Assembly (NCBI GenBank): GCA_947561715.1
Contig: OX387201.1
Span: forward strand, 17,312,001 to 17,376,000
Reading direction: 5' to 3'
Length of the DNA stretch: 64,000 bases
Source: Ascidia mentula
Taxonomy: Eukaryota; Chordata; Ascidiacea; Phlebobranchia; Ascidiidae
Part shown: positions 9,863-39,380 of the stretch, in pieces
Numbering within the stretch: the stretch's first letter is position 1
How the letters are laid out: the number at the start of each line of letters is the position of its first letter
Made by a program: the position numbers and the translations under genes
Notes under the pieces: generated by a model
Seen by the model: the letters and a program-made list of their open reading frames with translations, nothing else
Databases searched by the model: none
What the model was told of the DNA's origin: nothing

Positions 9863-12800
9863 GTCAGTTTTTTTATCATCCTCTGATCGTCAAGATTTAA
9901 TCAATCTCAAAGTGTTTGCACAACCATTTAATTTTTATTGCTTGGTGTCAAAAAGCAAAAATGGTTCATGCCTCGTTGTGGCAACAACGTATATTTTCTT
10001 TTTGTTAAAGTTGTTAAACCCTGATCATTACTTTATACTATTATTATTAATTATTAATTTTATTATACCAGAACGAAGTTGCGAGGCTTTGTCGACGCCG
10101 CCAAATGGAAGCGTCACATGCAGTGACCAAGCTCTTTACCGCTCCATGTGTCGCTTCCGTTGTAGTGAGGGATTCCGCTTGGTGGGAGAAATGAACATCA
10201 GATGTCGATCTGATGGCCGATGGTCAGGGGAATCCCCGCAGTGTGTTGGTAAGATAAATTTTGCTTGCTTTAAACCACATTTCCTGCAATCGGCATTCAA
10301 AAGGCCCTTTTTAGGTTAGAAAATTTATAGCTTTTTTTACAACAAAATAATAATAGCCTTACACAGAGTAGCGAATGTTGAAACATCTGTTTGTATTTGA
10401 TTTAGAACGAACATGCAGCGCATCGTACTTGACCATCGAAAACGGTTTAGTGCTTGCCTCCCAATCAGTTCGCAATGGGTGAGTCGTAATATATTTATAT
10501 AACTGCGTCCCTGTCAGTAAATAACTTATCCTATTCTCATACATGATTTTGTGTACGTAGGTCGGTTGCACAGTACTCGTGCGCTGAAGGCTACGAGCTG
10601 ATTGGCTCAGCGGAAGTCACGTGCCTTTCGTCCGGAGTCTGGAACAAAGCGAAGCCTTCTTGTCAACGTAAGTTGATCGAAACAAGATTAACAAACAACA
10701 ATAGAATGCTTGTGCTATATCTATTGCCTCCCTGTTTCGCACCGATAATATTAATCAACTTTATTGTAGTTTTATGGGGTTTGAGGATGACACTTCTGCG
10801 TCCACATGATGCGAACTATTTTAACCGCTATGTAGGTCTAACATGTGCTCCCCTTAAACTGGAGAACGGGATGGTGGAATGCAGTCGAGACGCATCGGAG
10901 GAGCAGGGTGTGACGTGTACATTCCGATGTAACTCTATGTACGAACTGACCGGAGCGTCTAGCGCCACCTGCCGTGCTGACGGCTCGTGGTCGAACCAGA
11001 CTCCATATTGCAAAGGTAGGGAAACACTTGCATTGTTTGTACAACTTAATTTATTTGAATGTAAACTATTCAAGTCTCCGGTGATAGAAGTTATAAACTC
11101 ACATGACATGCAAGTGTGGGCGTATGTACTGGCTTATATGCAAAGTATATCCTGTATTCCTAGTAAAGTTTAGGAATTTGCTTGACGCACACTACCGAGT
11201 AGGTATAGTTGTAATAAGTGTTGATATATTTCAGGTTTCTGTGACAGTTCCTTCACTCAGTTCAGCGGCGGTAGAATAAACTGTTCTAACTCCCACTACC
11301 ATCGCTCTCAGTGCAGGTAAAACTTATTTCAAAACACCTTTAACCAATCTCCCAATCCCAATGCATGACACACATATAAAGCATAACATTCAGAAGCTAC
11401 GCTTAAAACTTCTCAACCTTTCTGCTTTAGGTTTTGGTGCGACTCCGACAATGACGTCACAAGTCAACTTCACGGTTCACCAACCATCACGTGTGGGGAG
11501 GATGGGCGTTGGAGCGAAGTCCCTCCGTGTTGTGCACGTAAGTTTGCTATTTAGATGGCTTTTGCCAAGGGCGTGCTTTGAACCCACAACCATAGGTGTT
11601 TTACTTTGGATTTTCTGTTGCAGGGGAATGCCCCCAACACGCGAAGATCGATCTCTTCTTCGTGCTGGATAGCAGCGCCAGTGTTGGTTTTAAAAACTGG
11701 ACAAAAGTCTTGGAGTTTGTAAACACAGTAAGTTAGATTTTCCACTGCGGGAAGATGTGTATTCACACATACCTAATTCTTACTCGTCTTGCTCAGTTTT
11801 TGTCGACGCTTTCTATTGGCGGAGAGGACACGCAAGTGGGCGTGGTTCGCTACAACCGAGAAGTTGACGTCAGGTCTGAAATCAGCCTCGGGAAGATAGA
11901 AACACTTTCCGAACTTCAGCATGTTGTGACGTACATGCCGTACGGCGGCTGGGGTAAGTCCCGCTACTGTGTTTTACTTTCCATTCACAGAAATTTATTT
12001 TGGATAGCAGTTAAACTGTTTTATTTGTGGGAATTTAGAAACATACATGGGTGTATAGGTTGGCAATTTATTCACTTATTTTTACTCAGTTGTTTATTAG
12101 AAGCAAAAAAGACGCGATTAATTTTGTACAAGCTTACGCACTGTTTGGAGTAAACATTTATTTAAAGGCGGCGCTTACACGGAAACGTGTTAGACGCAAA
12201 CCAAGCGAAAGCGTGTTTAAGCAAACAAACAAATGCTTACAGGGCTTATATGTTGGTAAGCTATAGCTCGCTAGTCTTTTCATACAACGGGTTTTCAACC
12301 ATTACCCCGTGCTGCTCCGTCACGATGCTATCGTCAAAACTAGCGTCATCACCATTAATAGACGCGCACACGTCGTAAACCGCCTCTTCCTTGTGTGACC
12401 GGTTGTCGTGGCAACCCGCACCTTGTTCCTCGTATTCATCGTCTTCAAACTCGTTCACTACAACACTCACTCTCTTGGTCGGTGTTGCGTCGAATACGGT
12501 CACAATTTTGGGTCTTCCTTGTCTGTTCTTATGCTTAGCCAGCTTCTTCTTATACTGCCAGTATCGCCATGCGAATACCGCACTTACGCCCAATACAAGC
12601 ACTGCCGCCAATGTAATTAGGACAGCTGCAACCACATAAGTCCATGTTATTTCGCAAGTTGTAGGTGCATTTGTAGCTTGCGTTACATTCCTTGTCAACA
12701 AGTCATTCAAAGTGGTTTCCTCAGTTGAGTCTGTAAAGCTTCCTTGGCTCGTATTTGTCGTCGTAAGGCCGTGTGACGTCATGTTAAATTGTGACGTCGT

Positions 12801-15620
12801 TGTTTCTTGTGATGTTGTTGGTTCGTATGATGCCGTGCTGTCTTGTGGCGTCATAGGGCTGTGTGACGTCATATTGTCCTGTGACGTCATGTTGTTTTGT
12901 GACATCGTGGTGTCATCTGTCACGACTGGAGATGTATAATTATTGGGTATACTGGTTGCCGTCGTGTTGGTTGCGTCGGGTGTGGAAACATATGGTTGGG
13001 AAGTTGCTGTGGTTGTGGAGCTGTTAAATAACATTATATCTTTACTTGTTTAACATACAGCGTCGTTTAGTTTCGAAATGCAACAGTTTTCCGAATTATA
13101 ACTGATAGGAAAAATGTCCAGATTATTTTCGTGATGATTTTAGGAGTAACAATGGCAGGTTAAAATAAATTATGAGTCGTGAAATTTTTCATAAATATTA
13201 ACGTCAGAATTCAAGCACAAATTTGGTGACATCTATGGTCGTCAAAGTTGACTTACTCGCAATCTGCAGCAATTTCACAACTGCAGGTTTCATTATTTTC
13301 CCGCCATAATATTTTGTAATATTGGGCGTTGCTGTCGACCTCCGGACAACCGCATTCGCAAAATAAAACATTTTCCGCATTAGAATTATCGTATGCTTGA
13401 CAGTTTCTCCGATTCCTGGCGTTTGTGTTGGAAATCAGAAGAATAAAAGCACAACCAACGCCGAACAAACAAAACCAATACTTCATACTGCTTCAACCCC
13501 TAACGTTGTTTGTAAGGAAGCATCCAATAAGTGATTTCCTGAAAAAGTAGTTTGAAGTCGTTGAACTCAAAATAATCGCTGCTACTCATAACTGGACACA
13601 ATTTCTGCTGTTCTTGATGTAATTATTCACATATTCAATTAAACCAACTTTCAAAACTGAGCAGCTTTAACTTCCCATGTTCTCAATGCTTAAATTTTCA
13701 ATCCCACACTTTGTGAAAAACTTTGTAGTCTCCTCGGTCAGGTTTTATACAAACGCAGTACGTTCTGCCTCTTCAACGCGAGAAATGGTCTGACGAAAAT
13801 AAATTCGAACCGAGAGGCCTGTCCCCTATTTCAGCTTCAGGGTTGGTATTATATCGATCCCGGCACTGGATAAATTTGCTTTAGTGCGGAAAAATTACCT
13901 TAAAATAACTACTTTCGCTTATTGGGTTGTTTATGGCTCAGACAATATCCTTTTATTTTCTGTCGGAGTGTCGAGTCAAATGCTTTCGTTTTCATTTCGT
14001 ATCGCTTTCAGTATCCGTCCCACTCTTACTATTAATGACGTTTATTGTAACTCGAAAACGTCTTAGACAAAAAATGCACTCATACAAAACTAGTTACAGT
14101 GTAACAATATTTGTAAAAACCGTCTCAGTGAAACTAAAATCAAAAGCTCATGTCATTTTTTAACCTGGGCGTATAAGGCGCTGATGTCATCGACTTTGGG
14201 TCGATCATTACTTATGTAAGCGGGTGTTACGGCGTCGGCATTAGCACTTCCACCTTGATATGCCACATTAGCCGTCATGCCATAGTCGTTAGACTGGCCA
14301 TTAGCATTAGCATCAGCATTCGTTTTATGTTTCTTGCGTTTAATGCATAAAACAATTAGAATTACCACGCCTGAAAGTATTGCCACACCACATAATGCAG
14401 CCACAATTGCTATGGTTGTAGTTGAAAGAACCCTGATGCTGGTTGTTTTATTTGCTGCAGTTGTTGCAGTGATTGCCATACCGGTAGTAGGTGCTGGAGT
14501 TGGAAAAGAGCAGCCTGCACATATATGAGAAACCTTTTTTAGTAACTTTGCTTTTAAGTTACGGCTGATTGAAGGCTTAATTATTATTTTGTTCGCCACG
14601 TTTAATATATGGTTATCAGATGCTGGGCAAATACACTTTTATCTATTTAACGACCAAGGTTTAAGTGCAAAACACGTATTGGGCATATAGAGATTATGAC
14701 ATATGCGTGTTTCGAAACGAGATTATACCGTTAGTTGTCATGTAAATATGACATCCTGTTCCATATACCTGACAAACTTTCATTCTGTGGAGCCCAACAT
14801 GATGTGTCGTTTAGTAGGGCGCAAGTTCCGTTCAAATCTGTAATGTTTAGCTCTACCTTTATTTGTCCAGCAAGGGAAAGGTTAACGTGAATCCCACACC
14901 TGCAGAAGCACATAGAAATTTTATTTTTTCACCAACTTCCTTGTGACTTTACGAAAATGAAATTACGTCAGCTATGAAAGTATAGAAAAATACGCACTCA
15001 ATTCGCCCTATGTGGTTGGTTTGGGTTTTTTTAACGACGTCAAGAGAAACTTTTATTTTTCCCTTAAGTTTTTCGTAAGTGTTTATACACCGTGATGACT
15101 GTAAGGCCACACTTCCTTGTATTTCATAACTTACTCTCTGTAAAGCGTATGGCAATATTTCCTGCACGGGAACCGTAAAGTCTGTGGGTTTAACGACTGC
15201 TGAATACATTCTGGTAGTAACAAACGCCAACCAAAGACAATCAGTTTGTCGCTGCATGAACAGTTGAGATCCGGGATTAGGCTGCGCTTCTGGCACAGTC
15301 GGTTGACTGGAAAGTGACTGATGTTAGCGCTGTACCTCTTCCATAACCCTTCGTCAGTGTGGTTGTAGTTTAGCGTCTGTACGGTGCAATTGGCGGTCAC
15401 GTTAGCGGGAAATTGCTGACAGGGTGGTGGCGGAGGTGTTATAGAACTTGTAGATTCTCCTGTTTTTTTAGCCGGGGAAGGTGGCGGTGAATTATTTTTA
15501 CAGCACATGTATCCATTTGAAAGCAACAGTAACAGTAGTATCCTTATAAAAGTTATCATTTTCATAGTGGTACAGGTCTGCGGTATACTCTACTCGTTTC
15601 GCTATTGAATCATCCAATTC

Positions 15621-15652
<32 letters not shown>

Positions 15653-18419
15653 AACAAATGCTGAACGTCCTAGAATAACTTCACCCTGCCCGAAAAACCT
15701 CCATGTTAAAATAAAGCTTGCAGCAAAACTACGACCTAAACTGGCTGTTGTTTTGTTACGAAACGCCTTGAGAATCTGAAACTGCCCAGAAGCAGATACA
15801 AAGTGTTGTGAGAAAAGGCACGTATCCCATAACAGAAAAAAGGTGGTGACCATTTCTTGGCCCAAAGGCGACGCTTCCTTATCGCTAATTCTCTCCCTTC
15901 TCGTTTTTCGGGTGCAGAGTGCAGACATCGTGCAAAGTATTGTGAACAGCTTCCCTGTTTGTGTTGCCCCACTGGTAAATTGAAAACGGAAATTCACGCC
16001 AAACATGCGTTCAATGACGCATCGCCATTCACAGCAACTGCACAAAAATTTCGCAACAAGAACACGATGTCAAAAACGAGGGCACAATTTCTGGTCAGCA
16101 AATGCGTGAAAAAACAGATTAGGCTCCTAATGCTTATCGTGAAGGCAATTGGTGCGAACTGACAAGTTTGTTACAATCCAAATGCAAAAATTGAAAAGCA
16201 TAGAACTGTGGCATCATTTTGCAATGGATCATATTCTCCATTGCACTGTTACTTCAAATTACCACACTACGATGCCAATGTTTGCCTGCACAAAGCATGA
16301 GATAGCGCAAAGGATAATAATCTTATAATAATCTTAAATACGACAGCAATAGTTTGTAGGTTCGGGGTGGCAACCTTTTTTCAATTGTGAGTTACCACAC
16401 GAAGGAAGGGCAAACGTGTGACACGTGGTTTCCAAGCAACGCACAAGGGCGTTTATTTACGTCATCACAGACCGTTGATTGATGACGCTTCGTTAAAGCT
16501 TGAGTCGGAAAAGAAAGACGCGTCACGACCAGATAGATCTATGACGAAATCCGGAACTTGACTCACTCCCGATGTTGCTCTTTGGCTCCTCCTGCTGCGT
16601 CGACTCCGGATGCTGGCTTGAATGCGGCGCATCTGCATCATCTCTCTTCTCCGCTTCTCCTTTTTGCGGTGGTAAATTACGTGTGCTGTGAATAAAGACC
16701 AGCCCACCCCCGCCACTCCAGCCAGTCCGTACATAATGTACGTGTGTAGCTTATCCGGTTCAGCTTCGATTTCTGTTGTATTGTTTGCCTCATTTGTGGA
16801 CACTTCAATTTTTGTCGGGCTGTTGTCAAATTGGGTCGTCGTGTCGATGTCTTCGAAATCGGTTCCAGCTGCTGTAGATACGGGAATTCCATTGGTGTTA
16901 GTGACCCCTACATGAGTAACCAAAGTGTATTGTTGGTCTTTGGTTTCAGTGGCAACAGTTGTAACGCTTGCATTTGAAGGATAGCTGGTTGTAGCAGTGT
17001 CTTGTGTAACACCCGTTTCTTTCTGTGTTACGACAACCACGGCGCTAGTGAAGGTAAAATACGTTACATCATCGTCTGTGATTGTGCTATTTTCCACTGC
17101 TGATGTCGTGTTGTCGCCAAGACAGCCATTAATAAATCTTTCCGGAGCAACGAACAATAACAACAGCACACACCACAGACATTGGCCGCCTAAGATAAAC
17201 ATTCCTTCTTTGTGCAGCAATTTCCTTTAAACCTTTACCTGTTCAAACGCAACTTGCACAATGCCAGTTTAGACATGTTGTGTATGATCTGCAGCGTTTC
17301 CTGGCGAATGGACTACATCGCATAGTGGGCCGCTTTTCTGTGTTGGAATTCCTGAATTAAGTGGGCGCTGAGCTTTGCGCAATGTGAGGGTGGCGCTGTT
17401 TGTGATTTTCCGTCTATCTTTGGCCACATCGTTCCGGAATTCGTTGAGCTTATTGTTGTATTATGGCTACGTCACATACTGCCTATAGTAGTGTGGAAAC
17501 GCATAACGTAACCGAACTTACCTGTCTTCAGAATGACACACGCTAAAGCTATAAACGCAACCGAAATTGGAACCAAGTCACAAAGTTTTTTAAAAACAGC
17601 CTTTATTTATGTGGAATGCAGCCCATGCCAGGTTTCATCCAGCAAAGTCGCTATGATGTTGGATTACCAAATTTAAACATCCCGCAATACGTTTCACTAC
17701 GTCACAGTATTTTTTGGATATTTGCATATCGCAACCAAGCAACCGCTAATAAAAACATCTATCTTTGTTTTAGGAACCAACACCGGCCGAGCTCTTACTT
17801 ATGTGGCTGAGAATGGTTTCAAGACGCCTGAAAACCGACCAGACGCAAGTGACTACGTCATCCTTATCACTGACGGCGTCAGCGATGATGACGTCACTGG
17901 GGCTGCCCAAGCCCTTGCACTCAATCAAATTACGGTAAGCCTTTGCCCGAAGATACGTTTGCTAAAAACTATGACTTCGCAATAACATTGTTGTTGCCTT
18001 TTCGTCAGGTGTACGCGATTGGCGTTGGTGAAGTCGATGACGAACAACTTCGACAACTTTCGTCTAAACCGGAAAACGTACACACAGTTGGCGAAAACTT
18101 TGAAGGTCTAAATCAAGATTTGGTACAGAGAATTACGTCGAGTATATGCGAAAGTCCGTGCCTGTAAGTTTTCGTTGTTGTAGTTTGAAATCTTTTCATT
18201 CTAGTCGCATTTCCAGTGCTGTTAACGCAGCAAAGATTAAACACTTTCAGCTGCACGACGTTCTGTTAGCCTAAGTTGCTTTACGTGGGAAAATGCACGC
18301 AGTAGAATTATACACATGTAGAAAATCTATACAAGGTTGTGATATGCATTGTCTTTTGCAGAATGCAAAACTCGTGGAGAAATCTCGCCAACTCGTATTT
18401 AAGCACAAGTGAAGGCTGA
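1..18419 (+). CDS. Multi-CCP (sushi) protein with C-terminal vWA domain, 5'-partial
   Basis: Probably a secreted recognition or adhesion protein: about 2,180 residues are visible, with 31 CCP domains then one vWA domain, and no membrane segment after it. CCP signatures (four Cys, GY, final W) recur throughout. Exons after the repeat modules: 10072-10248, 10406-10478, 10561-10667, 10836-11015, 11235-11316, 11431-11537 (four CCPs), then vWA exons 11624-11727, 11797-11953, 17774-17934, 18009-18163, 18362-18419 (TGA). All junctions are GT-AG and keep phase. The vWA has a full MIDAS: DSSAS, the Thr of TNTG, and ITDG, so metal-dependent ligand binding is plausible. Complement factor B/C2 also join CCPs to vWA but carry a serine protease, which is absent here. 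The 5' end, including any signal peptide, lies outside the window. The last short exon is the least certain. Family assignment is solid; function is inferred. Confidence 0.9.
12261..13486 (-). CDS. N1: mucin-like type I membrane protein, nested gene
   Basis: Two exons, 13486-13257 and 13020-12261 (GT-AG, phase 2), give about 329 residues. Exon 1 has a signal peptide (hydrophobic residues 5-20) and a short Cys-rich segment with CECGC. Exon 2 has a Thr/Ser/Asn-rich stalk with many N-glycosylation sites and repeated MTSQ-like units, a TM segment near residues 204-228, and an acidic cytoplasmic tail. The tail includes VYDV and ends close to ENPLYEKTSEL. NPLY resembles NPxY adaptor-binding motifs. 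The region from EAVYDV to NPLY aligns with the tail of the gene at 39,380-38,355. It lies inside the intron that splits the vWA domain of the CCP gene, on the opposite strand. I do not recognise a named family; a heavily glycosylated signalling receptor is the best reading. Confidence 0.8.
14153..15565 (-). CDS. N2: Cys-rich (Frizzled-CRD-like) single-pass receptor with YAQV tail
   Basis: Three exons, 15565-15135, 14899-14769 and 14514-14153, with GT-AG junctions in phases 2 and 1, give about 307 residues. Order: signal peptide with a poly-Leu core (residues 5-16), Pro-rich linker, then a Cys-rich domain. The spacing of C...C.C..L..F.W..LLPEC...PCR..C recalls a Frizzled/sFRP CRD, though divergent. 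Exon 2 adds three Cys and N-glycosylation sites. Exon 3 has a Thr-rich stalk, TM at about 221-245, a basic stop-transfer, and a tail with NVAYQ and ending ALYAQVKK. YAQV is a YxxV, ITIM-like tyrosine motif. The last exon is clearly related in layout and motifs to those at 35,806-35,472 and 31,432-31,116. It is nested in the CCP-vWA intron on the opposite strand. Ligand unknown. Confidence 0.8.
15620..15654. repeat. (AAC)n microsatellite
   Basis: About 11 AAC units just upstream of nested gene N2, between N2 and N3. It creates a spurious long frame on the minus strand. Confidence 0.95.
16465..17202 (-). CDS. N3: Ser/Thr-rich type I membrane protein, single exon
   Basis: An intronless frame of about 245 residues starting at the ATG at 17202. 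The frame is open slightly further upstream but has no earlier ATG. Residues 1-25 form a signal peptide (Leu-rich). The ectodomain is Thr/Val/Asp-rich with several N-glycosylation sites and only one Cys just after the signal. A TM segment lies near 153-175, followed by a strongly basic stretch (RRKK-type, then a run of Arg/Ser) and an acidic end with repeated phospho-acceptor Ser. Unlike N1 and N2 it lacks clear tyrosine motifs, so membership of the same family is only suggested by layout and location. Third of the three genes nested in the vWA intron on the minus strand. No family recognised. Confidence 0.7.
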   Translation of the reverse strand: MFILGGQCLWCVLLLLFVAPERFINGCLGDNTTSAVENSTITDDDVTYFTFTSAVVVVTQKETGVTQDTATTSYPSNASVTTVATETKDQQYTLVTHVGVTNTNGIPVSTAAGTDFEDIDTTTQFDNSPTKIEVSTNEANNTTEIEAEPDKLHTYIMYGLAGVAGVGWSLFTAHVIYHRKKEKRRREMMQMRRIQASIRSRRSRRSQRATSGVSQVPDFVIDLSGRDASFFSDSSFNEASSINGL

Positions 18420-19660: not shown

Positions 19661-20007
19661 TCACACGATTTCGGCGTAAACGTTGTTCTGACCACCCCAG
19701 TTTTCGTACTCAGAATTGTAAATTACGTTATTCACAACAGATGTTTCCATGTTGTTGTACTCAGGTTCAGAACTGAAGGAAGGGGACGTCTCCTCGACCC
19801 TGCTGGCATACAGTACATTGTCGACCACAATTTTTTCAAGGGATTCGTCCATTCCAATTTGCTTGCGGTTCTTCTTGTGTCGTCTTTTATTGCAGTAGTT
19901 GCAGCAAAGGGCACAGACGAACAGAATAAACAAACCAACGCCAATGATAACAACTATTCCTGGCAACACCGCACACACCCACACATTGTTTTGAGTTATG
20001 CAATCCT
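19661..20007 (-). CDS. R1: TM and tyrosine-tail exon, partial receptor
   Basis: A phase-1 exon (acceptor ACATTTACAG at 20,008) encoding about 115 residues: two Cys-containing stalk residues, a TM segment (VLPGIVVIIGVGL...), a Cys-rich then basic juxtamembrane part (CCNYC, RRHKKNRK), and a tail with VVDNVLY, NNVIYNSEY and the end NNVYAEIV. The YAEI/YAQV-type end and the DNVLY element link it to the exons at 35,806-35,472, to N2 and to the 38 kb protein. The frame stays open upstream to an alternative acceptor at 20,183, and an in-frame ATG at 20,026 could start a short protein. No signal-peptide exon was found nearby. It may be an alternative 3' exon or a decapitated gene. Confidence 0.6.
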
Positions 20008-20182
20008 CTGTAAATGTTGTTATCATGGCTGTATTTTTGCGGTGTTTCTGTTCAACCAGAGATGATTGGTTAAAGTTGAAAGTTCTAATTCCGTGCAGTT
20101 GTTTTATCACCGGTTCGAATTCCCAGTGCCGATGTCCTTCCGCTAATGATGTGGTTTCAAATCCCTTTATTAGCGGTGGCAC

Positions 20183-21512
20183 CTGAATTTTGAACGAAAG
20201 ACAGATTCAATAAACATAAGTCTAGTTGCTGCTCCTGTAAAAATATTAAAATATTTCCTTGATTTCTATGTTGTCGACTGTGACATAGGAGGTTAGAGTG
20301 ACATAAATTTTGCAAAATGCCGTTTATAACGTTTTCTGTTTTTCAACTTTCGTTCTTTGTTGTACGATTTCAAACAACCTGTCTATTTCATGCTGATAAA
20401 CTTAACAGAAAAAACTTTTACATTTTACTGTTCACATTTTATTATTCACAACAATATAAGCAAACCTTTTAATACCCCTTCGTCTTCGTAATACTTATGC
20501 AAGTATACACAAGCCGTTTTGAAATCTATTGTGACTGGTTGCATGAAAACCAGCTACTTGCAATGTGGGCTCCGCGCACTTTGTCTAACAATATTTCCTC
20601 TTGACGGCTTGCCAAATTCTCGCCCACATTGCTATGTATTGTTTGCACTAATTTGATGTGAGTCTAACGCCGTACAATACTAAAGCTAAACTAAATTTCG
20701 AAAATTCATTTATTTCTTCAAGTTTATCCTAATTGTACGCAAATAAAAATTTAATTCAACAAAAGCAGTCTAAAGAGAAAAACCGGATACCATGTTATTT
20801 TCACGCTTCAGTGCGGATGGTTTCCAAGAGCTCCACGCGTCATTTACAATTAGTCCACATTGATGGAACGTTCTGTGTATATTGTTTCATCCATTTGAAA
20901 TACCTTTATCACTAAATTGCTGTCTCCTGTAATGATATATGATCAAGGACAACATTTTGCTTCAACTATTATGCTGTATTTGGTTTAAATAGCATTTATT
21001 CAAGAGTATTTGCCACAAGGATGAAACTCATTTTATTGCACCAAACAGCACACAGGGCATTGAGAATTACAAAAAGCCGTGATGACCGATTCAGAGTCGC
21101 ACGATAACAACTAAACCATTCTTATATTGGCCGTCATTACATCAGTTTTCATGTAACTTGATAATCGGAGCACAAACCATAATTACGAAAAACTCAACTT
21201 AAAAAAATTATGAGGTTTTTCAGGCTTGGCAGCCCAGGCAAATTAAACATCATGATCGCGATACGTTAGTTGTGATCGTCAAGCAAGGACCTGCGCAGTG
21301 GGGCGATCCTGCCTATCATGCCATTGCATAAAATATTACTGCGCTAATAAAATTATGGTTCGATTGATATTTCGAGGCAATAATCGCATGCACTGAAAAC
21401 AAGTTCTCATACATTTAAGAAATGAATATTTGCAAAAAATCTACAACGTTCACTCAGTCAACATCAAATGTCGATAAAACGACAACAACTGGAACACGCT
21501 TATGGTGTTAAG
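20183..21512. other. Spacer S1, copy 1
   Basis: AT-rich sequence repeated nearly unchanged at 27,469-28,737. Its distal end (about 21,340-21,512) also matches the sequence preceding 7TM-a and 7TM-c, so it is the 3' flank of the 7TM genes. No gene seen. Confidence 0.6.
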
Positions 21513-22301
21513 CTATGTAGTGGACGTTTCATTGCTTACATTCCCCATAGGGATGTTTGGCGGTCCAACAGTTGCTTTTGCCGGAATTAGAAATCGTTTT
21601 CGATAATCTTTGAATGTGAGCAGGACACAACAGGTGTTCAACAGTCCGTTAGATGAATGTACCAAGGGTGAAAGTGTCACATTGAAAACCGGGACCATTG
21701 CTACAATAATAGCGTCAGAAACCAACCCCACGATCGTGAAGACAGCTATTCTTTTAATGGTTGCTTTGTTGTGGTGCTTTATGTGGAGAAACGGGTACAG
21801 CGTGAGTCCAAGAAGTAATATTTGGGAGATTGAAAAACAAATCATGATCACACGAATAAGAAATGTTGGGTCGTTTTCATCAGGGAATTGACAGCCAAAG
21901 GCAGTTGGCGGGCGTCGGTAAAAAATAGCAATCACATCACCGACTAAAAAAGAAATCAAGGCAGAAGCCACAAAAGGAAACTGCACGAGTTTAATGAACT
22001 TCATGGTGATGGGGCCGTATCGGAATGAGGTTTTTTTGACAATTGTATTTTGCCGAAGCCATAGCAGAATTACAAATATAATTATCCTAGCACAACCCGC
22101 AACTCCCAAAGCAATAACAACAGTGTGGGACAGACCGCTTTTGACTGGTGGTGATGTAGCCCCTGACGTGAACTTGCTTTTGTCGTTGCTTCGGTTTGTA
22201 GTGATGTACAACATGTAAGTAAATGCCTTTAATAAATCCCCACTTGCTGGTACGTTAAGTTGCAATAAACAAATGGTAACATTATTATTAACACTTATCA
22301 T
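21513..22301 (-). CDS. Chimeric frame: receptor TM exon fused into the last five helices of a 7TM gene
   Basis: One uninterrupted frame (first ATG 22,301, about 262 residues). Its N-terminal part is the stalk and TM segment of the short-receptor exon (KSGLSHTVVIALGVAG, as at 31.4 and 35.8 kb). At about 22,067, inside the hydrophobic segment, it switches to the 7TM sequence at LLWLRQNTIVKK, and continues to the end of the 7TM gene with NPLY-free tail SNETSTT. Relative to copy 2 this is one deletion of about 2 kb that joined two genes in frame. The splice acceptor used by the sister exons (ACAG/GT) reads ACAT/GT here, so it could not be spliced as they are. Whether it is expressed is unknown. 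Confidence 0.65.
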   Translation of the reverse strand: MISVNNNVTICLLQLNVPASGDLLKAFTYMLYITTNRSNDKSKFTSGATSPPVKSGLSHTVVIALGVAGCARIIIFVILLWLRQNTIVKKTSFRYGPITMKFIKLVQFPFVASALISFLVGDVIAIFYRRPPTAFGCQFPDENDPTFLIRVIMICFSISQILLLGLTLYPFLHIKHHNKATIKRIAVFTIVGLVSDAIIVAMVPVFNVTLSPLVHSSNGLLNTCCVLLTFKDYRKRFLIPAKATVGPPNIPMGNVSNETSTT

Positions 22302-22338
22302 AGAATTATACAATACCTTGTCGGTCACCTTTCTCTCC
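22289..22338 (-). pseudogene. Orphan tail-exon fragment (DNVLYNSMISVN), copy 1
   Basis: The minus strand reads VTDNVLYNSMISVN, matching VVDNVLYNSTISVN in the tail of the 38-39 kb gene. Here it sits just upstream of the chimeric frame, with stops on the far side. A second copy is at 31,511-31,570. It looks like a stranded exon fragment from an ancestral receptor. Confidence 0.55.
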
Positions 22339-23619
22339 TACCCCAAAAGTGTGCATTAGATTCACACGAGTGCTTGTGCAAATCCCAATTTGCGTTTTAA
22401 ATACTTTTTGATGAGTGCACAGCATGTAGCCTACTTAATAAAAACTATATAGTGACACAAATTTAAGAAAAACTGATTATTATATCCGAGATCACAAAAA
22501 ACAGAAACAAAACAATCAACATCAGTGTGTGTGGTTTGATATTACTGTAACAGAAATAAAAATTTCGCCCTTTGGCATCGTTAGTTTCTGTCTCATTCAA
22601 TAGAATCAAACCTGCACAGGCCGATTCCTGTAGTAACTTGATGACATTTTCTATCGTAGCTTATTGATTCGAACTAAAATGCAAGTTAGACAAATCATGT
22701 ACGCAAATATGTTCAAAGACAAAGATTGTACCTTACCTAAACCATTGCCTTAGTGAGTCCACTCTTTTATTGGGATTTTGTACCAAACTCAGGTTCAACC
22801 AAACACGACAAGTACGGAATAAACAGTTAAACAACGAATACCTGGAAACAATTAATTCGTATGTTCGTTAAGATGTCGCGCATCATAAGCTTGGCTATTG
22901 CCAAGGAGAAGTGGCTCAAAAAATTGATGCCACAATTGACATTTGGAAACGCTTAGCTTGCTTACGATTTGGAAGCTTTTAGCTTAAATTCAAGTTTTTC
23001 TGTGCCATCAGATGAAATGCTGCAACCATAAGGGCCGGTCCTAGTGCGGGGCCCGATTATATATAAAAAAAACGAATGCGAGCCTGTATTTAAACCAAAA
23101 AAAAGATCTCAATTACATTTGCCATGTACTTACGATAAATTTAACGTGAAGCAGCTGCATCAGCAACTTATATCGGATAAACCCGATTCACCCGACAGGC
23201 TGAACTAAAACTTGTTTTTAACAAATTGTGTGAGGCAATTTTACATTACTCATTTTATTCCACCAAACAATACACAGAGCATTGGGAATGGCATAAGCTG
23301 TGATGTCCGCTTCAAAGTCGCACAATAACAACTAAACCATTATCATGTTTGCCGTCATTACATCAGTTTTCATGTAACTTGATATTCGGAGCACAAACCA
23401 TAATTACGAAAAACTCAACATGAAAAAATTATGGTTCGAAACCATAATTACGAAAAACTCAACATGAAAAAATTAAGGTTCGATTGATATTTCAAAGCAA
23501 TGCACTGAAAACAAGTTCACATACATTTAAGAAATGACTATTTGCAAAAAATCTGCATCATTTACTCAGTCAACACCAAATATCGATAAAAGCAACTGGA
23601 ACACGCTTATGGTGTTAAG
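22339..23619. other. Spacer S3, copy 1
   Basis: AT-rich, duplicated at about 31,571-32,845. Near 23,398-23,472 a short segment (CATAATTACGAAAAACTCAA) is repeated. No gene seen. Confidence 0.6.
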
Positions 23620-24537: not shown

Positions 24538-26248
24538 GTTTCCTTTATTGACAGCGCATTATTTTCACCTGCGAATAAATCGTTTTTCAACAAATGTAAT
24601 AAAGTTTTTAGTCCACTCTCTGATTTTTAACGTTAGGTGCAGCAGCATAACTTTTATTAATTTAAAAAAACCTACAATTGAGAAATTTTTAACAGAAAAT
24701 TTTATTTGAATTATCATTTATGTTTATTTCTGCAACGTAATTTTATCTTGAAACTTCTATCTTCTATAGGCCTGTGGTAGACTTAAAAATTTTCCGATAA
24801 TGGTTGCTAGCCAAAATCAAAATTATCTACCTTATCCAGGGTAGACAAAACACATTCCCAACTTCATCTGCTTTACAGTGCGGTGGCGCTGAACTAATCA
24901 TTTTCGGCAACCGTTCGTCGAGTTATTTCTCTGCTCTTTGTTAGATTATAAATGTTTCAGTAAATTTTGTCCGACGTTTCAGAATTAAAACATTTAAGCG
25001 ACGTTGAAACGAGATCGGGTGAAACGTGATATGAACAAGCTTTTAGAACCGCGTTTGGTTTCCAATTGCCATATGTCAAATTTAACAAAAGCGCTAGGTT
25101 GCATATGCTGCCCTAATAGTCTATAAATAATGCTATGTGTGATTTGCTCCGTAGTGACGAATGTAACGATTTCAAATCAACACTCCTGTTGATTGAAAAA
25201 ACGCAAACAAATTTTTAGATATGGTTGTGTTGTTGGCTGGGTGACCACCATTTATCATGAAAATAATTACATTAAATCCCGGCCAAACTCAACTGTCTTT
25301 ATGGCGACGAAAATGAAAGTTGCATGGAATGTCAAAACGAAATGTTATCCAGCATCTTGCGTAACCGGTTGCGGGAAATTGCCACTTTATTTGACGAAGT
25401 TTCTGAGGTACATTCTAGCAAAAAAAAGGATGTAGACATCATCTGCTGGCTGCTTATGAAAAACTTTACTTAATTTGTATTTGTGTTTTTATAGTGAAAG
25501 AAAGTCTGCATTCTTTCTTGGGCAACTGAACAAGACTTTTACGCAATAGCTTACTTTTGGTGCAACTCATCTATTTAACTTTAAAAAGCCGCAAAGATAT
25601 AAACCGCGGAAGTAATTGATGGATGTGGCATCAAAACAGTTGTACAGAAGAGTGTTGACTTTGCAAATCGACAGATAATCCCAGAAAAACCATCCAAGGC
25701 AATTTTGGGCGGATTGCCAAAGCGTTGATGTAGAGAACGCAGTTTCCACTTGTTTATTTGATTAGTGTGGTTTGGTAAGTGTAAACGTAAACGTAAATGT
25801 AAGCTTTTCTACAACATAACAAGTAACATAACAATGCATCAATACATATAGCAATCGTCAACACTACACAAACGCACTCACCGACAGTATAGGATCCTTA
25901 CAACAGATTAGAAGCATGCGCCTTATAGGTCGATATTTAAATTAGGTCGATAATTAAATTATTCAGGTGTGTTCGAAACTACACTTGGCGAATTCAAAAG
26001 ATATTTAAACAATCTGTTACTTTTTCACTTGAGCGTAGTAATGTCACCGTCATATTCTGTCTCATTCAAATAGAACAGGCTAATTCCTGTAGTAATTTGA
26101 TGACATTCTCTGTCGTAGCTTGTTGATTCGAACTAAAATGCAAGTTAGACAAATCATGCACGCAAATATGTTTAAACACAAAGATTGTACCCTGCCTGAA
26201 CCATTGCCTTAGCGAGTCCACTCTTTTATTGGGATTTTGTACCAAACA
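24538..26248. other. Spacer S2 plus junction remnant, copy 1
   Basis: Repeated at 29,656-31,115 and 33,758-35,471. Near 26,040-26,075 the start of a TM-tail exon (GTAATGTCACCGTCA) runs straight into spacer-S3 sequence, marking a deletion of that exon. S3 sequence then continues to the boundary with copy 2. No gene seen. Confidence 0.6.
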
Positions 26249-26919: not shown

Positions 26920-27266
26920 TCACACGATTTCGGCGTAAACGTTGTTCTGACCACCCCAGTTTTCGTACTCAGAATTGTAAATTACGTTATTCACAACAGA
27001 TGTTTCCATGTTGTTGTACTCAGGTTCAGAACTGAAGGAAGGGGACGTCTCCTCGACCCTGCTGGCATACAGTACATTGTCGACCACAATTTTTTCAAGG
27101 GATTCGTCCATTCCAGTTTGCTTGCGGTTCTTCTTGTGTCGTGGTTTAATGCAGTAGTTGCAGCAAAGGACACAGACGAACAGAATCAACAAACCAACGC
27201 CAATGATAACAACTATTCCTGGCAACACCGCACACACCCACACATTGTTTTGAGTTATGCAATCCT
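26920..27266 (-). CDS. R2: TM and tyrosine-tail exon, duplicate of R1
   Basis: Near-identical to R1, with the same phase-1 acceptor (27,267), TM segment and NVYAEIV end. The visible amino-acid changes are few, for example in the TM (VGLLILFVCVLCC against VGLFILFVCALCC) and juxtamembrane (CIKPRHKK against CNKRRHKK), and the tail motifs are unchanged. Preservation of the frame in both copies suggests function or a very recent duplication. The same reservations about a missing 5' part apply. Confidence 0.6.
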
Positions 27267-27468
27267 CTGTAAATGTTGTTATCATGGCTGTATTTTTGCG
27301 GTGTTTCTGTTCAACCAGAGATGATTGGTTAAAGTTGAAAGTTCTAATTCCGTGCAGTTGTTTTATCACTGGTTCGAATTCCCAGTGCCGATGTCCTTCC
27401 GCTAATGATGAGGTTTCAAATCCCTTTATTAGCGGTGGCACCTGAATTTTGAACGAAAGACAGTTCAA

Positions 27469-28737
27469 GATTTAATAAACATAAGTCTAGTTGCTGCTCC
27501 TGTAAAAATATTAAAATATTTCCTTGATTTCTATGTTGTCGACTGTGACATAGGAGGTTAGAGTGACATAAATTTTGCAAAATGCCGTTCATAACGTTTT
27601 CTGTTTTTCAACTTTCGTTCTTTGTTGTACGATTTCAAACAACCTACATTTTACTGTTCACATTTTATTATTCACAACAATATAAGCAAACGTTTTAATA
27701 CCCCTTCGTCTTCGTAATACTTATGCAAGTATACACAAGCCGTTTTGAAATCTATTGTGACTGGTTGCATTAAAACCAGCTACTTGCAATGTGGGCTCCG
27801 CGCACTTTGTCTAACAATATTTCCTCTTGACGGCTTGCCAAATTCTCGCCCACATTGCTATGTATTGTTTGCACTAATTTGATGTGAGTCTAACGCCGTA
27901 CAATACTAAAGCTAAACTAAATTTCGAAAATTCATTTATTTCTTCAAGTTTATCCTAATTGTACGCAAATAAAATTTAATTCAACAAAAGCAGTCCAAAG
28001 AGAAAAACCGGATACCATGTTATTTTCACGCTTCAGCGCGGATGGTTTCCAAGAGCTCCACGCGTCATTTACAATTAGTCCACATTGATGGAACGTTCTG
28101 TGTATATTGTTTCATCCATTTGCAATACCTTTATCACTAAATTGCTGTCTCCTGTAATGATATATGATCAAGGACAACATTTTGCTTCAACTATTATGCT
28201 GTATTTGGTTTAAATAGCATTTATTCAAGAGTATTTGTCACAAGGATGAAACTCATTTTATTGTACCAAACAGCACACAGGGCATTGAGAATTACAAAAA
28301 GCCGTGATGACCGATTCAGAGTCGCACGATAACAACTAAACCATTCTTATATTGGCCGTCATTACATCAGTTTTCATGTAACTTGATAATCGGAGCACAA
28401 ACCATAATTACGAAAAACTCAACTGAAAAAAATTATGAGGTTTTTCAGGCTTGGCAGCCCAGGCAAATTAAACATCATGATCGCGATACGTTAGTTGTGA
28501 TCGTCAAGCAAGGACCTGCGCAGTGGGGCGATCCTGCCTATCATGCCATTGCATGAAATATTACTGCGTTAATAAAATTATGGTTCGATTGATATTTCGA
28601 GGCAATAATCGCATGCACTGAAAACAAGTTCTCATACATTTAAGAAATGAATATTTGCAAAAAATCTACATCGTTCACTCAGTCAACATCAAATGTCGAT
28701 AAAACGACAACAACTGGAACACGCTTATGGTGTTAAG
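27469..28737. other. Spacer S1, copy 2
   Basis: Duplicate of 20,183-21,512, with a deletion of about 60 bases near 27,645 relative to copy 1. No gene seen. Confidence 0.6.
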
Positions 28738-31115: not shown

Positions 31116-31432
31116 TTACTTGAGCGTAGTAATGTCACCGTCACACGCCTTTTCGTTTAGGAGATCAGAATTCACAACACCCGCACTTTGGTACGCCACG
31201 TTGTCCGTCAATGCGAACGTTTGCTCTTCAGAATGTTCTGTTCTCTGCCTTTCGCGTTTCGTGCCAAAGGAACTCATAAGGATTACAATTATAAGTATCC
31301 CTGCACCACCCGCAACTCCCAAAGCAATAACAGCTGTGTGGGACAGACCGCTTTTGACTGGTGAGGGTGTGGCCCCTGGCATGCTGTTGTTTTTGTCGTT
31401 TAAAGTTGCTTCGGTTTTTAGTGATGTACAAC
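31116..31432 (-). CDS. TM-tail exon with shortened tail (orphan or alternative exon)
   Basis: Phase-1 exon with intact acceptor (ACAG at 31,433-31,436). It is closely similar to 35,806-35,472 through the stalk, TM (HTAVIALGVAGGAGIL) and TDNVAYQSAGVVN. At the end it reads DITTLK and stops, because 7 bases present in the sister exon are missing. The terminal AIYAQVKK is therefore lost while NVAYQ is kept. No signal or stalk exon lies directly upstream. It could be a pseudo-exon, or an alternative 3' exon giving a receptor without the YAQV motif. Confidence 0.55.
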
Positions 31433-32845
31433 CTGTAAATAAATGTCTTTAATTAATCTCCACTTGCTGGAATGACATACTTTAAGTTGCAATAAACATA
31501 CAGTAACATTATTATTAACACTTATCATTGAATTATACAACACGTTGTCGGTCACATTTCTCTCCTACCCCGAAAGTGTGCATTAGATTCATACGAGTTC
31601 TTGTGTAAATCCCAATTTGCATTTTAAATACTTTTTGATGAGTGCACAGCATGTAGCCTACCTAATAAAAACTATATAGTGACACAATTACAAGAAAAAC
31701 TGATTAATATATCCGAGATCACAAAAAACAGAAACAAAACAATCAACATCAGTGTGTGTGGTTTTATATTACTGTGACAGTAATTTAAATTTCACCCTTT
31801 GGCATCGTCAGTTTCTGTCTCATTCAATAGAATCAAACCTGCACAGGCTAATTCCTGTAGTAATTTGATGACATTTTCTGTCGTAGCTTGTTGATTCGAA
31901 CTAAAATGCAAGTTAGACAAATCATGTACGCAAATATGTTCAAAGACAACGATTGTACCTTACCTAAACCATTGCCTTAGTGAGCCCACTCGTTTATTGG
32001 GATTTTGTACCAAACTCAGGTTCAACCAAACACGACAAGCACGGAATAAACAGTTAAACAACGAATACCTGGAAACAATTAATTCGTACGTTCGTTGAGA
32101 TGTCGCACATCATAAGCTTGGCTATTGCCAAGGAGAAGTGACCCAAAAAATTGATGCCACAATTGACATTTGGAAACGCTTAGTTCGCTTACGATTTGGA
32201 AGCTTTTAGCTTAAATTCAAGTTTTTCTGTGCCATCAGATGAAATGCTGCTACCATAAGAGCCGGTCCTAGTGCGGGGCCCGATTATATATAAAAAAACG
32301 AATGCGAGCCTGTATTTAAACCAAAAAAAAGATCTCAATTACATTTGCCATGTACTTACGATAAATTTAACGTGAAGCAGCTGCATCAGCAACTTATATC
32401 GGATAAACCTGATTCACCCGACAGGCTGATCTAAAACTTGTTTTTAACAAATTGTGTGAGGCAATTTTACATTACTCATTTTATTCCACCAAACAATACA
32501 CAGAGCATTGGGAATGGCATAAGCTGTGATGTACGCTTCAAAGTCGCACAATAACAACTAAACCATTATCATGTTTGCCGTCATTACATCAGTTTTCATG
32601 TAACTTGATATTCGGAGCACAAACCATAATTACGAAAAACTCAACATGAAAAAATTATGGTTCGAAACCATAATTACGAAAAACTCAACATGAAAAAATT
32701 AAGGTTCGATTGATATTTCAAAGCAATGCACTGAAAACAAGTTCACATACATTTAAGAAATGACTATTTGCAAAAAATCTGCATCATTTACTCAGTCAAC
32801 ACCAAATATCGATAAAAGCAACTGGAACACGCTTATGGTGTTAAG
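31433..32845. other. Spacer S3, copy 2
   Basis: Matches 22,220-23,619. It includes the second orphan DNVLYN tail fragment (31,511-31,570, minus strand). No complete gene seen. Confidence 0.6.
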
Positions 32846-33757: not shown

Positions 33758-34803
33758 GTTTTCCTAATTGACAGTGCAATTTTTTCACCTGCGAATAAAA
33801 CGTATTAATTTAAAAAAAAAAAAATTATGCATTTAACAAAATTTTTTATTTGACTTATCATTCATGTTTATTTCTGCAACTTAGGTTTACCTTGAAAATC
33901 TAAACTCTTTTAAATGTTGTTCTGACGAACCCGAAGGCAAACGATCAAAAGTCTAATTCAGAAATCGATAACGCTGCGGTGAAAAATATGATTTCTTCTA
34001 GCTTTCAAAATTTTCGATAATGGTTGCTAGCCAAAATCAAAATTATCTACCTTATCTGAGGCAGACAAATCACATACAGTTCCCAACTCCAGCTGCTTTA
34101 CCGTATGGTGCCGCAGAACTAATTGCTTTTGGCAGCATCAACCGTTCGTTGAGTTATTTCTCAATGTTGGGTTATAAATGTTTTAGTAAATTTTGTCCGA
34201 CGTTTCAGAATTAAACATTTAAGCGACGTTGAAACGAGATCGGATGAAACTTGATATGAACAAGCTTTTAGAACCGCGTTTGGTTTCCAATTGCCATATG
34301 TTAAATTTTACAAAAGCTAGGTTGTAGCATGTGTTCTCCTCATAGTCTACAAACAATGCTATGTGTGATTTGCTCCGTAGTGACGAATGCAACGATTATA
34401 AATCAACACTCCTGTTGATTGAACAAATGCCAACAAATTTTTAGATATGGTTTTGATATTGGCTGGGTGACCACCATTTATAATGAAAATAATTACATTA
34501 AATCCCGGCCAAACTCAACTGTCTTTATGACGACAAAAATGAAAGTTCCATGGAATGTCAAAATGAAATGTTCTCGAGCATCTTGCGTAACCGTTTGCGG
34601 GAAATTGCCATGGTATTTGACGAAGTTTCTGAGGCCCAGTCACACTTGCTCAAAAGGATACAGGCCCAAATCACGTTATCGGTGCTTATGAAAAACTTTG
34701 CTTAATTGTGTTTGTGTATTTTCGGAGAATTGCTGAGTTTTGGGGCCACTGAGCAAAGCTTTTCACGCAATCGTTTACTTTTGGTGTAACTCATCTATTT
34801 TAC

Positions 34804-35471: not shown

Positions 35472-36919
35472 TTACTTTTTTACTTGAGCGTATATGGCAG
35501 TGACGTCACCGCCACACGCCTCTTCGTTTAACAGGTGATCGGGATTCACAACACCAGCACTTTGGTACGCCACGTTGTCCGTCAAGCCGAGCGTTTGCTC
35601 TTCGGAATGTTCTGTTCTCTTCTTTTCGCGTTTTATGCAGAAGAAACCGATAAGAATTACAATTATTAGTATCCCAGCACCACCCGCAACTCCCAAAGCA
35701 ATAACAACAGTGTGGGACAGACCGCTTTTGACTGGTTGTGATGTAGCCTCTGACATGCTGTTGTTTTTGTCGTTTGAAGTTGCTTCGGTTGGTAGTGATG
35801 TACAACCTGTAAACTAATGCCTTTACTTAATCTTCACTTGCTGGTACACAATACTTTAAGTTACAATAAACATACAGTAATAATGTATTAAAATCCCAAA
35901 ACAGCGATCTGTAGACAGCTCAGATCGATTTATTGAGAGAAAAATATATTTCGCCTAAAACGGCATCATCAGTTTCTCCATTTACCAAAACTTATTCAAA
36001 TAGAAAATCGATCTGAGCTGTCTACAGATCGCTGTTTTGGGATTTTAATACATTATTATTGATACGGTGTGCGATCGACAGCCTGCCAGGGGCCTTTGGT
36101 TTTTTGATCCAGTTTTGATTTACTAATCACATTGGAAACATACAGTAACATACTAATTAGCCCAAAAGTAGCAGCACCATGGCCATTTTAGTGTTCGAGA
36201 ACAACCCTGGGAAAATGGTTTTTAAACATTTACCTGAACAAAACAGTGTGAGACCAGATTTTTCAGTTGAATCCATAATCTTTAGTTGGCCTGTCGTTAC
36301 AGAGGGTTGATGTGTGGTTGATGCGGTTGGCTGTTGTGGTATTGTGGGCAATTGTGTGGTGGGTTTTTGTGTTGTGGGTCGTTGTGTTGTGGGTGGTCGT
36401 GTTGGTTTGTTACCGCAAGCATTAGAACCTGGGATAAGGAAATAAAAAGAAAGAAAATGTTAAAAAAAAACAATCATCGTATTCTGTATTACCGGTCGAA
36501 TAAAATTAATCGTATACCAGTGTTTTTCACTGCAGACTCACAAATTAAAGCTTGCTTAACGATAGAGTTAAACTGAATGTAACCATTTAAAGATTTCTAT
36601 AGTTTCTGAGGCACTTTTTGTGACAAACTGATTGCAGAAATTGAATTACGACAGGCACTGAATAGATCTAAAAGTTACAAAAGCCAGAGACTGGCGGCAC
36701 TCCAGACATTTAAAAAACGTTTTATTTAAACTTACGCAAGTGACAAATTGTCTGAAGTTTTAAAAATCAAATAGATCACAGTGAAAATAACATTCATATT
36801 ACCTTCTCGGCATTACTTGTAAGAATTCAAGAACACCTACCTTTGTTCATTAGCAAAATTGTCAAAAGAAGCATGAAAGTTCCTTTGCGTAGAAGGTCGG
36901 TTGCAACAAACTGGTTCAT
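35472..36919 (-). CDS. Complete short type I receptor with mucin-like stalk and YAQVKK tail
   Basis: Three exons: 36919-36841 (signal peptide, MNQFVATDLLRKGTFMLLLT then a hydrophobic end), 36428-36234 (Thr/Pro/Gln-rich stalk with PTTQ-type repeats and few Cys) and 35806-35472 (short stalk, TM near residues 123-147, tail). All junctions are GT-AG in phase 1, and the total is about 202 residues. The ectodomain has no folded domain, so it may be a mucin-like co-receptor or a presenter of the tail. The tail has TDNVAYQ and ends AIYAQVKK, like nested gene N2. Tyr in a YxxV context suggests SH2-dependent inhibitory or adaptor signalling, as in ITIM receptors, but position -2 is Ala, so this is only ITIM-like. 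An element has inserted in the second intron. Confidence 0.8.
35881..36135 (-). mobile_element. Insertion with 53 bp perfect inverted arms and hammerhead-like core
   Basis: Lies between direct repeats AAACATACAGTAA (35,868-35,880 and 36,136-36,148). The paralogous intron near 31,500 has a single copy. Arms at 35,878-35,930 and 36,006-36,058 are perfect complements over 53 bases. Between them, on the minus strand, is a hammerhead-like core. About 75 bases of unrelated tail (36,059-36,135) follow the right arm. The same layout as the element at 34.8 kb (arms, spacer, core, arm, 13 bp target duplication) with unrelated arm sequence suggests a family that shares machinery. Sits in intron 2 of the short receptor gene. 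Confidence 0.65.
35949..35972 (-). ncRNA. Hammerhead-ribozyme-like core
   Basis: Minus strand reads CTGATGA, T, GCC, a six-base loop, GGC, GAAA, then an A/T-rich self-complementary stretch that could be stem III. All core blocks are in the right order, with a short three-pair stem II. Activity unknown. Confidence 0.45.
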
Positions 36920-38304: not shown

Positions 38305-38354
38305 GCCTGGTCAAACGGAAACACACTTTTTCACAGAATAAATGACACAGAAAG

Positions 38355-39380
38355 TCATTCGAAGTCGTAGAAATTGCCGGCCTCGTGATAGACCGTTTCC
38401 TCCCTCTCCATATCATGATATTGCGCAGCGGAAAGTTCGTAAGTGTGAGAATACCTTGGTTCAATCGTCCCGAATACGGGTTCGTCGGCAAAGTCGTCTC
38501 CGCGGTAATGCAACTGGTGGTTCATGGCTGGCGAATAGGCGACTGGAGCGTTTACACTGACTGTCGATGGGTCAACGTTTAGCGTATACTTAAACCTGCT
38601 CTGGGTTTGAAACTGCGGCGAGGGGATTGTGTCGGTCATTTGGAACTGGCGGTTTCTTTCGTCGGTTGCACTGCCGGTACTAGATGTCGAATAAAGTGGG
38701 TTCCGCTTCTGTACGCCGTAAGTGTAAGTTTCCGATCCTTGTGCAAATGTGTCGTCGGAATTAACACTTATCGTCGAATTGTACAGCACGTTGTCGACCA
38801 CTTCTCTCTCCTGTCCCAGTGGGAACGTGTTCTCTCTTCTGTACTCGTGGTGATTTACCTTTTTCATATGCTTTGGTGTCAGAGCTTGTTTCTTGGGTCG
38901 GGACAGGTTTTCCATTGATTTTGCGTTGTGCAGACCATTTTGGGGCGTGTGAAGCTGGTTGCTGTGACCCTTCACATGTCTTGGCAGACTAGATGTTTTG
39001 TTCCCGAAATCGTGGAGTTTTTGGTGCAACAGGTTTTGTGGAAGACGCAATCGGTTGCCAGTGAACATGTTATGATTGTGTCCGCTCGAGCGAAGACGTA
39101 AATCTTCTGCACTCGCCGATTTTTCTTCTAGGGAGCTGTAATCCGAGCTGGAAAAATCTTCGTACACTCCTTCATCCGTTTCTTCGTAATTGTAATGGAG
39201 TTTGGGAGAATGATGAGGACTCTCCGATGCGAATGTGTAAACGGAATCTTCATTTTGTTGGTTCTTCGGCATTGGTGACCTTGTCGCTTCCGACTTGTTC
39301 ATCTTTTTCACTTCTTTCTTTAATTTGTCGGCTTGGACAGCCATTTTCTTCCACAGTTTTGTTTGCGTGATTGTCGCCAT
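38355..39380 (-). CDS. Cytosolic tyrosine-rich protein sharing the receptor tail (no TM)
   Basis: One exon. The first ATG is at 39380 (MATITQTKLW, preceded by GAAA), giving about 341 residues. There is no signal peptide or hydrophobic helix. The N-terminus is Lys-rich and possibly helical (KKMAVQADKLKKEVKKMNK). The middle is His/Asn/Ser-rich and probably disordered. The C-terminal half carries many tyrosines in acidic contexts (VVDNVLYNSTISVN, KRNPLYSTSS, EETVYHEAG, NFYDFE). VVDNVLYNS through NPLYS aligns with the cytoplasmic tail of nested receptor N1, and DNVLY is shared with R1/R2. It could be a soluble scaffold or competitor for the same SH2/PTB partners, or a receptor that lost its membrane part. 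Upstream AG sites leave room for an untranslated or trans-spliced leader. Confidence 0.72.
   Translation of the reverse strand: MATITQTKLWKKMAVQADKLKKEVKKMNKSEATRSPMPKNQQNEDSVYTFASESPHHSPKLHYNYEETDEGVYEDFSSSDYSSLEEKSASAEDLRLRSSGHNHNMFTGNRLRLPQNLLHQKLHDFGNKTSSLPRHVKGHSNQLHTPQNGLHNAKSMENLSRPKKQALTPKHMKKVNHHEYRRENTFPLGQEREVVDNVLYNSTISVNSDDTFAQGSETYTYGVQKRNPLYSTSSTGSATDERNRQFQMTDTIPSPQFQTQSRFKYTLNVDPSTVSVNAPVAYSPAMNHQLHYRGDDFADEPVFGTIEPRYSHTYELSAAQYHDMEREETVYHEAGNFYDFE

Follow-up and report, generated by a model that had tools for sequence, protein, structure and literature searches.

Does one ascidian locus encode a family of receptors that display different ectodomains on a single signalling tail? 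A first-pass annotation raised this question for a stretch of Ascidia mentula DNA of 64,000 nucleotides (contig OX387201.1, positions 17,312,001 to 17,376,000; hereafter the window), in which a set of minus-strand genes reuses a few tyrosine-containing tail motifs. Our analyses favor, somewhat beyond an even chance, a small group of predicted single-pass membrane proteins organized around tyrosine-bearing tails. These proteins are likely to be surface receptors coupled to kinases, a type already known and seen here in a form that would be private to the locus. Read as receptor-like proteins whose tails contain related segments, the group holds up; read as allorecognition receptors, it does not. 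We infer from the predicted sequences the expression, surface location, phosphorylation and partners of these receptors, as well as any immune role. Positions are quoted within the window, and genome searches covered 195.8 Mb in 79 contigs. The tunicate origin guessed in the annotation was borne out by the mitochondrial COX1 open frame, which contains 18 AGA/AGG codons; 16 follow the likely start, and several occupy positions that we take to be conserved glycines; this usage is that of the ascidian code (table 13).

Three predicted genes, N1, N2 and G35 (two, three and three exons), combine a signal peptide, one transmembrane (TM) segment by hydropathy and a tail with tyrosine motifs. All three models are open, with GT-AG splice sites and phases that close, and they span 202 to 329 amino acids (aa). 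N1 (329 aa) has a Cys-rich leader after its signal peptide, then a mucin-like Thr/Ser stalk, the TM segment and a tail ending in VENPLYEKTSEL. In N2 (307 aa), the signal peptide is followed by a Pro-rich stretch and a Frizzled-like Cys domain, and the tail carries NVAYQ and a terminal YAQVKK. G35 (202 aa) has a Thr/Pro stalk and a tail with DNVAYQ and, again, a terminal YAQVKK. The ectodomains had been described as completely different, which holds for N2 and G35; the Cys-rich leader counted as a separate type is that of N1 and lies ahead of its mucin-like stalk. Two further open reading frames (ORFs), R1 and R2, each encode a TM segment and a 79-aa tail, which in R2 contains DNVLY, YNNM, NNVIY, YENW and a terminal YAEIV; with a start at 20026, R2 would have 121 aa and hardly any extracellular portion. 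K38 encodes no TM segment, has 18 tyrosines, no cysteine and a grand average of hydropathy of -1.10, and contains VVDNVLY, NPLY and YHDM. It is predicted to be a hydrophilic, cytosolic protein, and it shares tail words with the receptors, in agreement with the cytosolic cousin proposed in the annotation. As had also been noted, the group matches no named family: N1, N2, G35, R, M16 (see below) and K38 gave no Pfam match above the cut-off. Candidates such as PARM, TMEM51, FAM174-like, Glycophorin and CD34 for N1, N2, G35 and R were below it, and we read them as reflecting stalk or TM composition.

We counted the tail motifs in all stop-to-stop ORFs of at least 60 aa on both strands of the window (25,133 aa). 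DNVLY, NVAYQ, NPLY, YAQVKK and YAEIV occur 12 times, and all 12 occurrences fall in minus-strand genes that the annotation had listed or in G31, a copy of the TM-tail exon of G35. The six products listed there do carry the motifs; however, R1 and R2 sit in a duplicated block, 95% identical, and represent one recently duplicated gene, so that the six products amount to five independent ones. Among the five non-duplicate tails (N1, N2, G35, R2 and K38), six 5-mers are shared, for a shuffle mean of 0.09, and none of 2,000 shuffles reached six. Similarly, NVxY occurs five times in four of these five tails (shuffle mean 0.22; 0/5,000). At the genome scale, the pattern YA[QE][VIM]KK followed by a TAA or TGA stop, TAG being left out, gave four matches, all inside the window: in N2, in G35, in G31 (where the frame is lost) and in the relic that starts at 26017. 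Its reversed version gave none. That this end belongs to a common ascidian tail type was therefore not borne out. Ten synonymous changes separate the genes within NVAYQ, YAQVKK and VVDNVLY, showing that these words are not freshly copied DNA; the absence of replacements in them is no test, because the words were chosen for their identity.

Are these motifs parts of one tail? The firmest relation is between N2 and G35, whose last exons, encoding the TM segment and the tail, are homologous as judged by sequence comparison. A genome search with this part of G35 found N2 at an E value of 5.1e-7; its five rows were G35, G31, N2, a chimeric ORF around 22 kb and a single site outside the window (E 0.74). 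None of 2,000 segment-preserving shuffles in each direction equaled the alignment of the two tails. Near the two shared tyrosines 11 of 15 columns are identical, versus 14 of 40 elsewhere (P = 0.016, or 0.052 without the tyrosines), and both last exons start with Gly-Cys across a phase-1 junction. The ectodomain exons joined to them via this phase-1 intron look unrelated, which would fit either exon shuffling or retention of the tail next to an ectodomain that has changed too far to be recognized.

Shuffle tests link N1 to K38. The alignment of its tail with K38 extends over approximately 90 columns and was matched by 0 of 1,000 shuffles, and by 0 of 3,000 block shuffles in either direction (highest shuffled score 63, versus 65 for the real pair), in a setting where 15 pairs were tried in each of two sets. 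R and K38 share VVDNVLY, with 44 of 3,000 block shuffles each way doing as well, and the N2-R and G35-R comparisons gave 16 to 34 of 2,000 shuffles. We thus have, as far as alignments and shuffles tell, one firm link (N2-G35), one supported link (N1-K38) and three marginal ones (R-K38, N2-R and G35-R). This is not the one signalling tail that had been proposed: N2 and G35 form a group, N1 is connected to K38 only, by shuffles, and the links of R are marginal.

The relations appear confined to this locus. Genome searches performed with N2, the TM-tail segments of G35, R and N1, the N1 leader and K38 yielded only three rows outside the window, with E values of 0.036 (N2), 0.74 (G35) and 1.3 (R). 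The searches with K38 and with the two parts of N1 listed only the place of the query itself. No further copy of the N2/G35 tail was found in the assembly. Among the papers listed in literature searches, some of which were capped, none was recognized as a description of this tail family.

A number of results weigh against a group built around such tails. The N1-K38 pair did not appear in the genome searches with K38 or the N1 TM-tail segment at E values up to 10, neither search listing the other partner, so that the link comes from the shuffles. Likewise, the R-K38 pair was absent from the searches with K38 or the R TM-tail segment, and the tail of N1 showed no significant similarity to those of N2, G35 and R in shuffles. 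The genomic pattern VDNVLY has 15 matches, three of them in the window, versus 27 for its reversed control; being at chance level, the word alone proves nothing. Conservation of the R tail does not clearly exceed that of the flanking DNA (1/200 versus 22/1,960 bases different between R1 and R2), and a search for a signal-peptide exon shared by R1 and R2 found none, which leaves the ectodomain of R putative. The Pfam Fz match of N2 has an E value of 8.3e-4 and 20.3 bits, below the cut-off of 32.1. Finally, no canonical immunoreceptor tyrosine-based inhibitory motif (ITIM; [SIVL]xYxx[ILV]), activation motif (ITAM; paired YxxL/I) or hemITAM ([DE]GYxx[LI]) was detected in the tails of N1, N2, G35, R2 and M16. 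K38 has one ITIM-like site (SSSDYSSLEE), which contains its single YxxL. With respect to allorecognition, Pfam detected no immunoglobulin (Ig) or sushi domains in the receptors.

The features of the locus are collected in Table 1.

Table 1. Predicted genes, gene copies and fragments of the tail-bearing locus (positions within the window)
Feature	Position	Strand	Exons	Basis or description
N1	12261..13486	-	13486-13257, 13020-12261	Splice sites, phase-2 junction
N2	14153..15565	-	15565-15135, 14899-14769, 14514-14153	Splice sites, phases
M16	16465..17202	-		Possible N1 relative
R2	19661..20206	-		TM-tail ORF, 5' end uncertain
G-type/7TM chimera	21513..22337	-		Open in-frame
K38-like fragment, 59 bp	22287..22345	-		80% identical; upstream end of chimeric ORF
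7TM gene	23620-24558	-		Intronless
Tail-exon relic, G-type end	26017..26052	-		Pattern match 26017-26037; block alignment to 31143
R1	26920..27471	-		Duplicate of R2
7TM gene	28738-29661	-		Intronless
G31	31116..31434	-		Copy of G35 TM-tail exon
K38-like fragment, 58 bp	31514..31571	-		83% identical to K38 coding DNA
7TM gene	32846-33763	-		Intronless
G35	35472..36919	-	36919-36841, 36428-36234, 35806-35472	Splice sites, phases
K38	38355..39380	-		Intronless ORF, 341 aa

What could such tails do? Tyrosine motifs of these kinds bind SH2 proteins, PI3K, Grb2 and PTB proteins. YxxV/I is present as YAQV in N2 and G35 and as YAEI in R, and absent from N1; R additionally has YNNM, which fits both YxxM and YxN, and YENW (YxN). 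NPxY occurs in N1 and K38, and NxxY in all five tails. The genome contains 47 exon-level matches to SH2 domains. In a possible mechanism, a ligand would cluster the receptor and a Src-type kinase would phosphorylate the tail tyrosines. The terminal YxxV/I sites (YAQV, YAEI), together with YNNM and YENW in R, would then recruit SH2 proteins, and PTB proteins or endocytic adaptors may dock at NPLY and the remaining NxxY sites. K38 would present like motifs in the cytosol, as a scaffold or a competitor. The full version, in which a private tail exon was fitted to unrelated ectodomains and K38 is a tail homologue that either scaffolds those SH2/PTB partners or competes for them, yielding a fuhc-like recognition locus from other parts, appears very doubtful to us. 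Self/non-self systems are known in few species of ascidians, a group closely related to vertebrates. If the tails were kept, the ectodomains exchanged and a cytosolic relative of the tails retained, the locus would be informative about the assembly of innate recognition loci, and it supplies short tail peptides open to immediate testing.

These proteins might instead be developmental or physiological adhesion or signalling proteins, N2 being perhaps Wnt-related, that are clustered only through local duplication and nesting. We consider this rather unlikely. The Frizzled-like domain of N2 speaks for it: the ectodomain has 13 cysteines, aligns in part with the Fz profile (positions 42-90) and matched Frizzled-6 in the PDB at an E value of 0.1. 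N2 resembles proteins with a Frizzled cysteine-rich domain in these respects; unlike Frizzled itself it is single-pass with a tyrosine tail rather than a seven-transmembrane (7TM) protein. A single-sequence structure model of N2 exon 1 was unusable (predicted local distance difference test [pLDDT], 37). The layout of N1, presumably sialomucin-like, and the nesting of N1, N2 and M16 in one intron also fit developmental or physiological proteins, whereas the lack of a convincing paralogue outside the locus and the quick copy turnover suggest lineage-specific work.

Is it then a recognition locus? The annotation had likened the cluster to paired or allorecognition receptors. Vertebrate paired receptors have alike ectodomains and opposite tails. 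The genes here are also clustered, single-pass and equipped with tyrosine tails, but the arrangement is reversed, as the N2 and G35 tails are alike and their ectodomains are not. Of the published layouts examined, the closest is, by analogy in outline, the fuhc locus of Botryllus. This locus spans about 800 kb and contains both BHF, a cytosolic protein described as disordered and LAT-like, and the fester co-receptors (FcoR), which have ITIM, hemITAM or core Y-x-x-I/L/V motifs (PMC12065747). As described there, this resembles our ascidian locus in its single-pass receptors with core YxxI/L/V tails (here N2, G35 and the putative receptor R2), its tyrosine-motif cytosolic protein and its gene-content turnover. 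According to the same review, FcoR proteins have an Ig V, a sushi and two Ig C2 domains in 520 to 610 aa, many with an ITIM or hemITAM (PMC12065747); the complete receptor models here are 202 to 329 aa long, and the receptors have none of these domains or motifs by the searches above. A sequence relation between a tail and the cytosolic protein, as suggested here by shuffles for N1 and K38, is not mentioned for fuhc in the passages of that review consulted here (PMC12065747).

A fuhc-like layout, with YxxI/L/V receptors beside a disordered, Tyr-rich cytosolic organizer serving in allorecognition or another self/non-self role, would be consistent with the co-location of FcoR and BHF (PMC12065747), with YAQV and YAEI tails lying within about 25 kb of K38 and with recent copy-number turnover. 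The missing Ig, sushi, ITIM and hemITAM features stand against it, as does K38 being devoid of cysteine, whereas three N-terminal cysteines are described as important for the location of BHF (PMC12065747). We regard this analogy as unlikely to reflect function and retain the view of receptor-like proteins with related tail segments. That the locus consists mostly of decaying duplicates, with tail-exon copies spread by a tandem array and one or two genes working, seems equally improbable. The loss in G31 of the in-frame end and of G35's first two exons, the relic at 26 kb, the chimera at 22 kb, the K38-like fragments and the lack of a shared signal-peptide exon in R point that way. Against it, the models of N1, N2 and G35 are open and have GT-AG sites, K38 is one open frame and the ratio of nonsynonymous to synonymous substitution rates (dN/dS) between G31 and G35 is 0.43.

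Between 19 and 36 kb, blocks repeat at 72 to 95% identity, and tandem duplication has interspersed R with G-type tail exons, including broken copies, and with unrelated 7TM genes that lack introns. In the R1/R2 block, the two copies differ at one of 200 bases in the tail, five of 163 in and beside the TM segment and two of 156 in the preceding open stretch, and at 57 of 556 in the 7TM part; the 5.5 replacement and 0.5 silent differences between R1 and R2 are too few to interpret. G31 keeps DNVAYQ, the codons of its terminal YAQVKK are out of frame, and no copies of G35 exons 1 and 2 were seen beside it. In the chimera, a G-type TM exon runs into the 3' portion of a 7TM gene, with a 14-base overlap (22055-22068) between the alignments to the two sources. 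One K38-like fragment is found upstream of the G31 exon and another where the chimeric ORF begins on its upstream side, which suggests an earlier duplication of a K38-G unit together with its partial deletion. A signal-peptide-like start at 31749-31692 on the minus strand lies upstream of G31 with a possible donor, and its length would fit phase 1; at the matching spot the copy at 22 kb has a stop, as judged by eye from the ORFs. An inverted repeat is also visible by eye at approximately 35890-36050, in the last intron of G35.

The 7TM genes were considered as members of the tail family and rejected, because their family is spread throughout the genome (56 matches at E values up to 1 from 89 candidates) and relatives of the tails were not found near the five 7TM loci sampled. 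For this check we used seven 9.9-kb stretches, five at 7TM loci on C69, C71 and C70 and two flanking the window. Tblastn of N1, N2, G35, K38, R1, R2 and M16 against them gave nothing at E values up to 0.5. Six ORFs of at least 80 aa with a TM-like part and a late YxxV/I/L were present in these stretches, three being copies of one sequence and none convincing. When 20 members of the 7TM family were compared with Pfam, nothing was better than E 0.032, and the comparison with solved structures gave a single row at E 1.1; structure prediction with the four 7TM sequences of the window gave no usable model (pLDDT 34). The invariant residues C96, R121, C175, P208 and N259 would suit divergent rhodopsin-like G protein-coupled receptors (GPCRs). 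A survey in Ciona mentions many 'Unclassified/Other' GPCRs that are probably ascidian-specific (PMC2396169). The same 44-bp tandem duplication occurs downstream of two of the 7TM genes of the window (23395-23483 and 32621-32709).

N1, N2 and M16 lie antisense in an intron (11954-17773) that splits a VWA domain (GGWG|TNTGRAL). M16 has a signal peptide, a Thr/Ser-rich ectodomain, a weak putative TM segment and a tail with one juxtamembrane tyrosine and none of the tail motifs; 18 of 1,000 shuffles equaled the N1-M16 tail comparison, making it a possible relative of N1. The enclosing plus-strand region (approximately 362-18164) contains sushi exons and the VWA domain and is presumably one gene. 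All four sushi ORFs given to Pfam matched, in five stretches, the others being recognized by eye, and the VWA domain is encoded by two ORFs, one just below the Pfam cut-off. Its sushi repeats recall Ciona vCRL1, a sushi protein once proposed for allorecognition that, by later work cited in the source, is important for the blood system and not for self/nonself recognition (PMC8849226); unlike vCRL1, the receptors here have no sushi match. Farther along the window, 205-bp units form two arrays, at 49043-50372 (6.5 copies) and 51487-54599 (15.2 copies), with 98% matches each, and by appearance the units of the two arrays look like mutual reverse complements.

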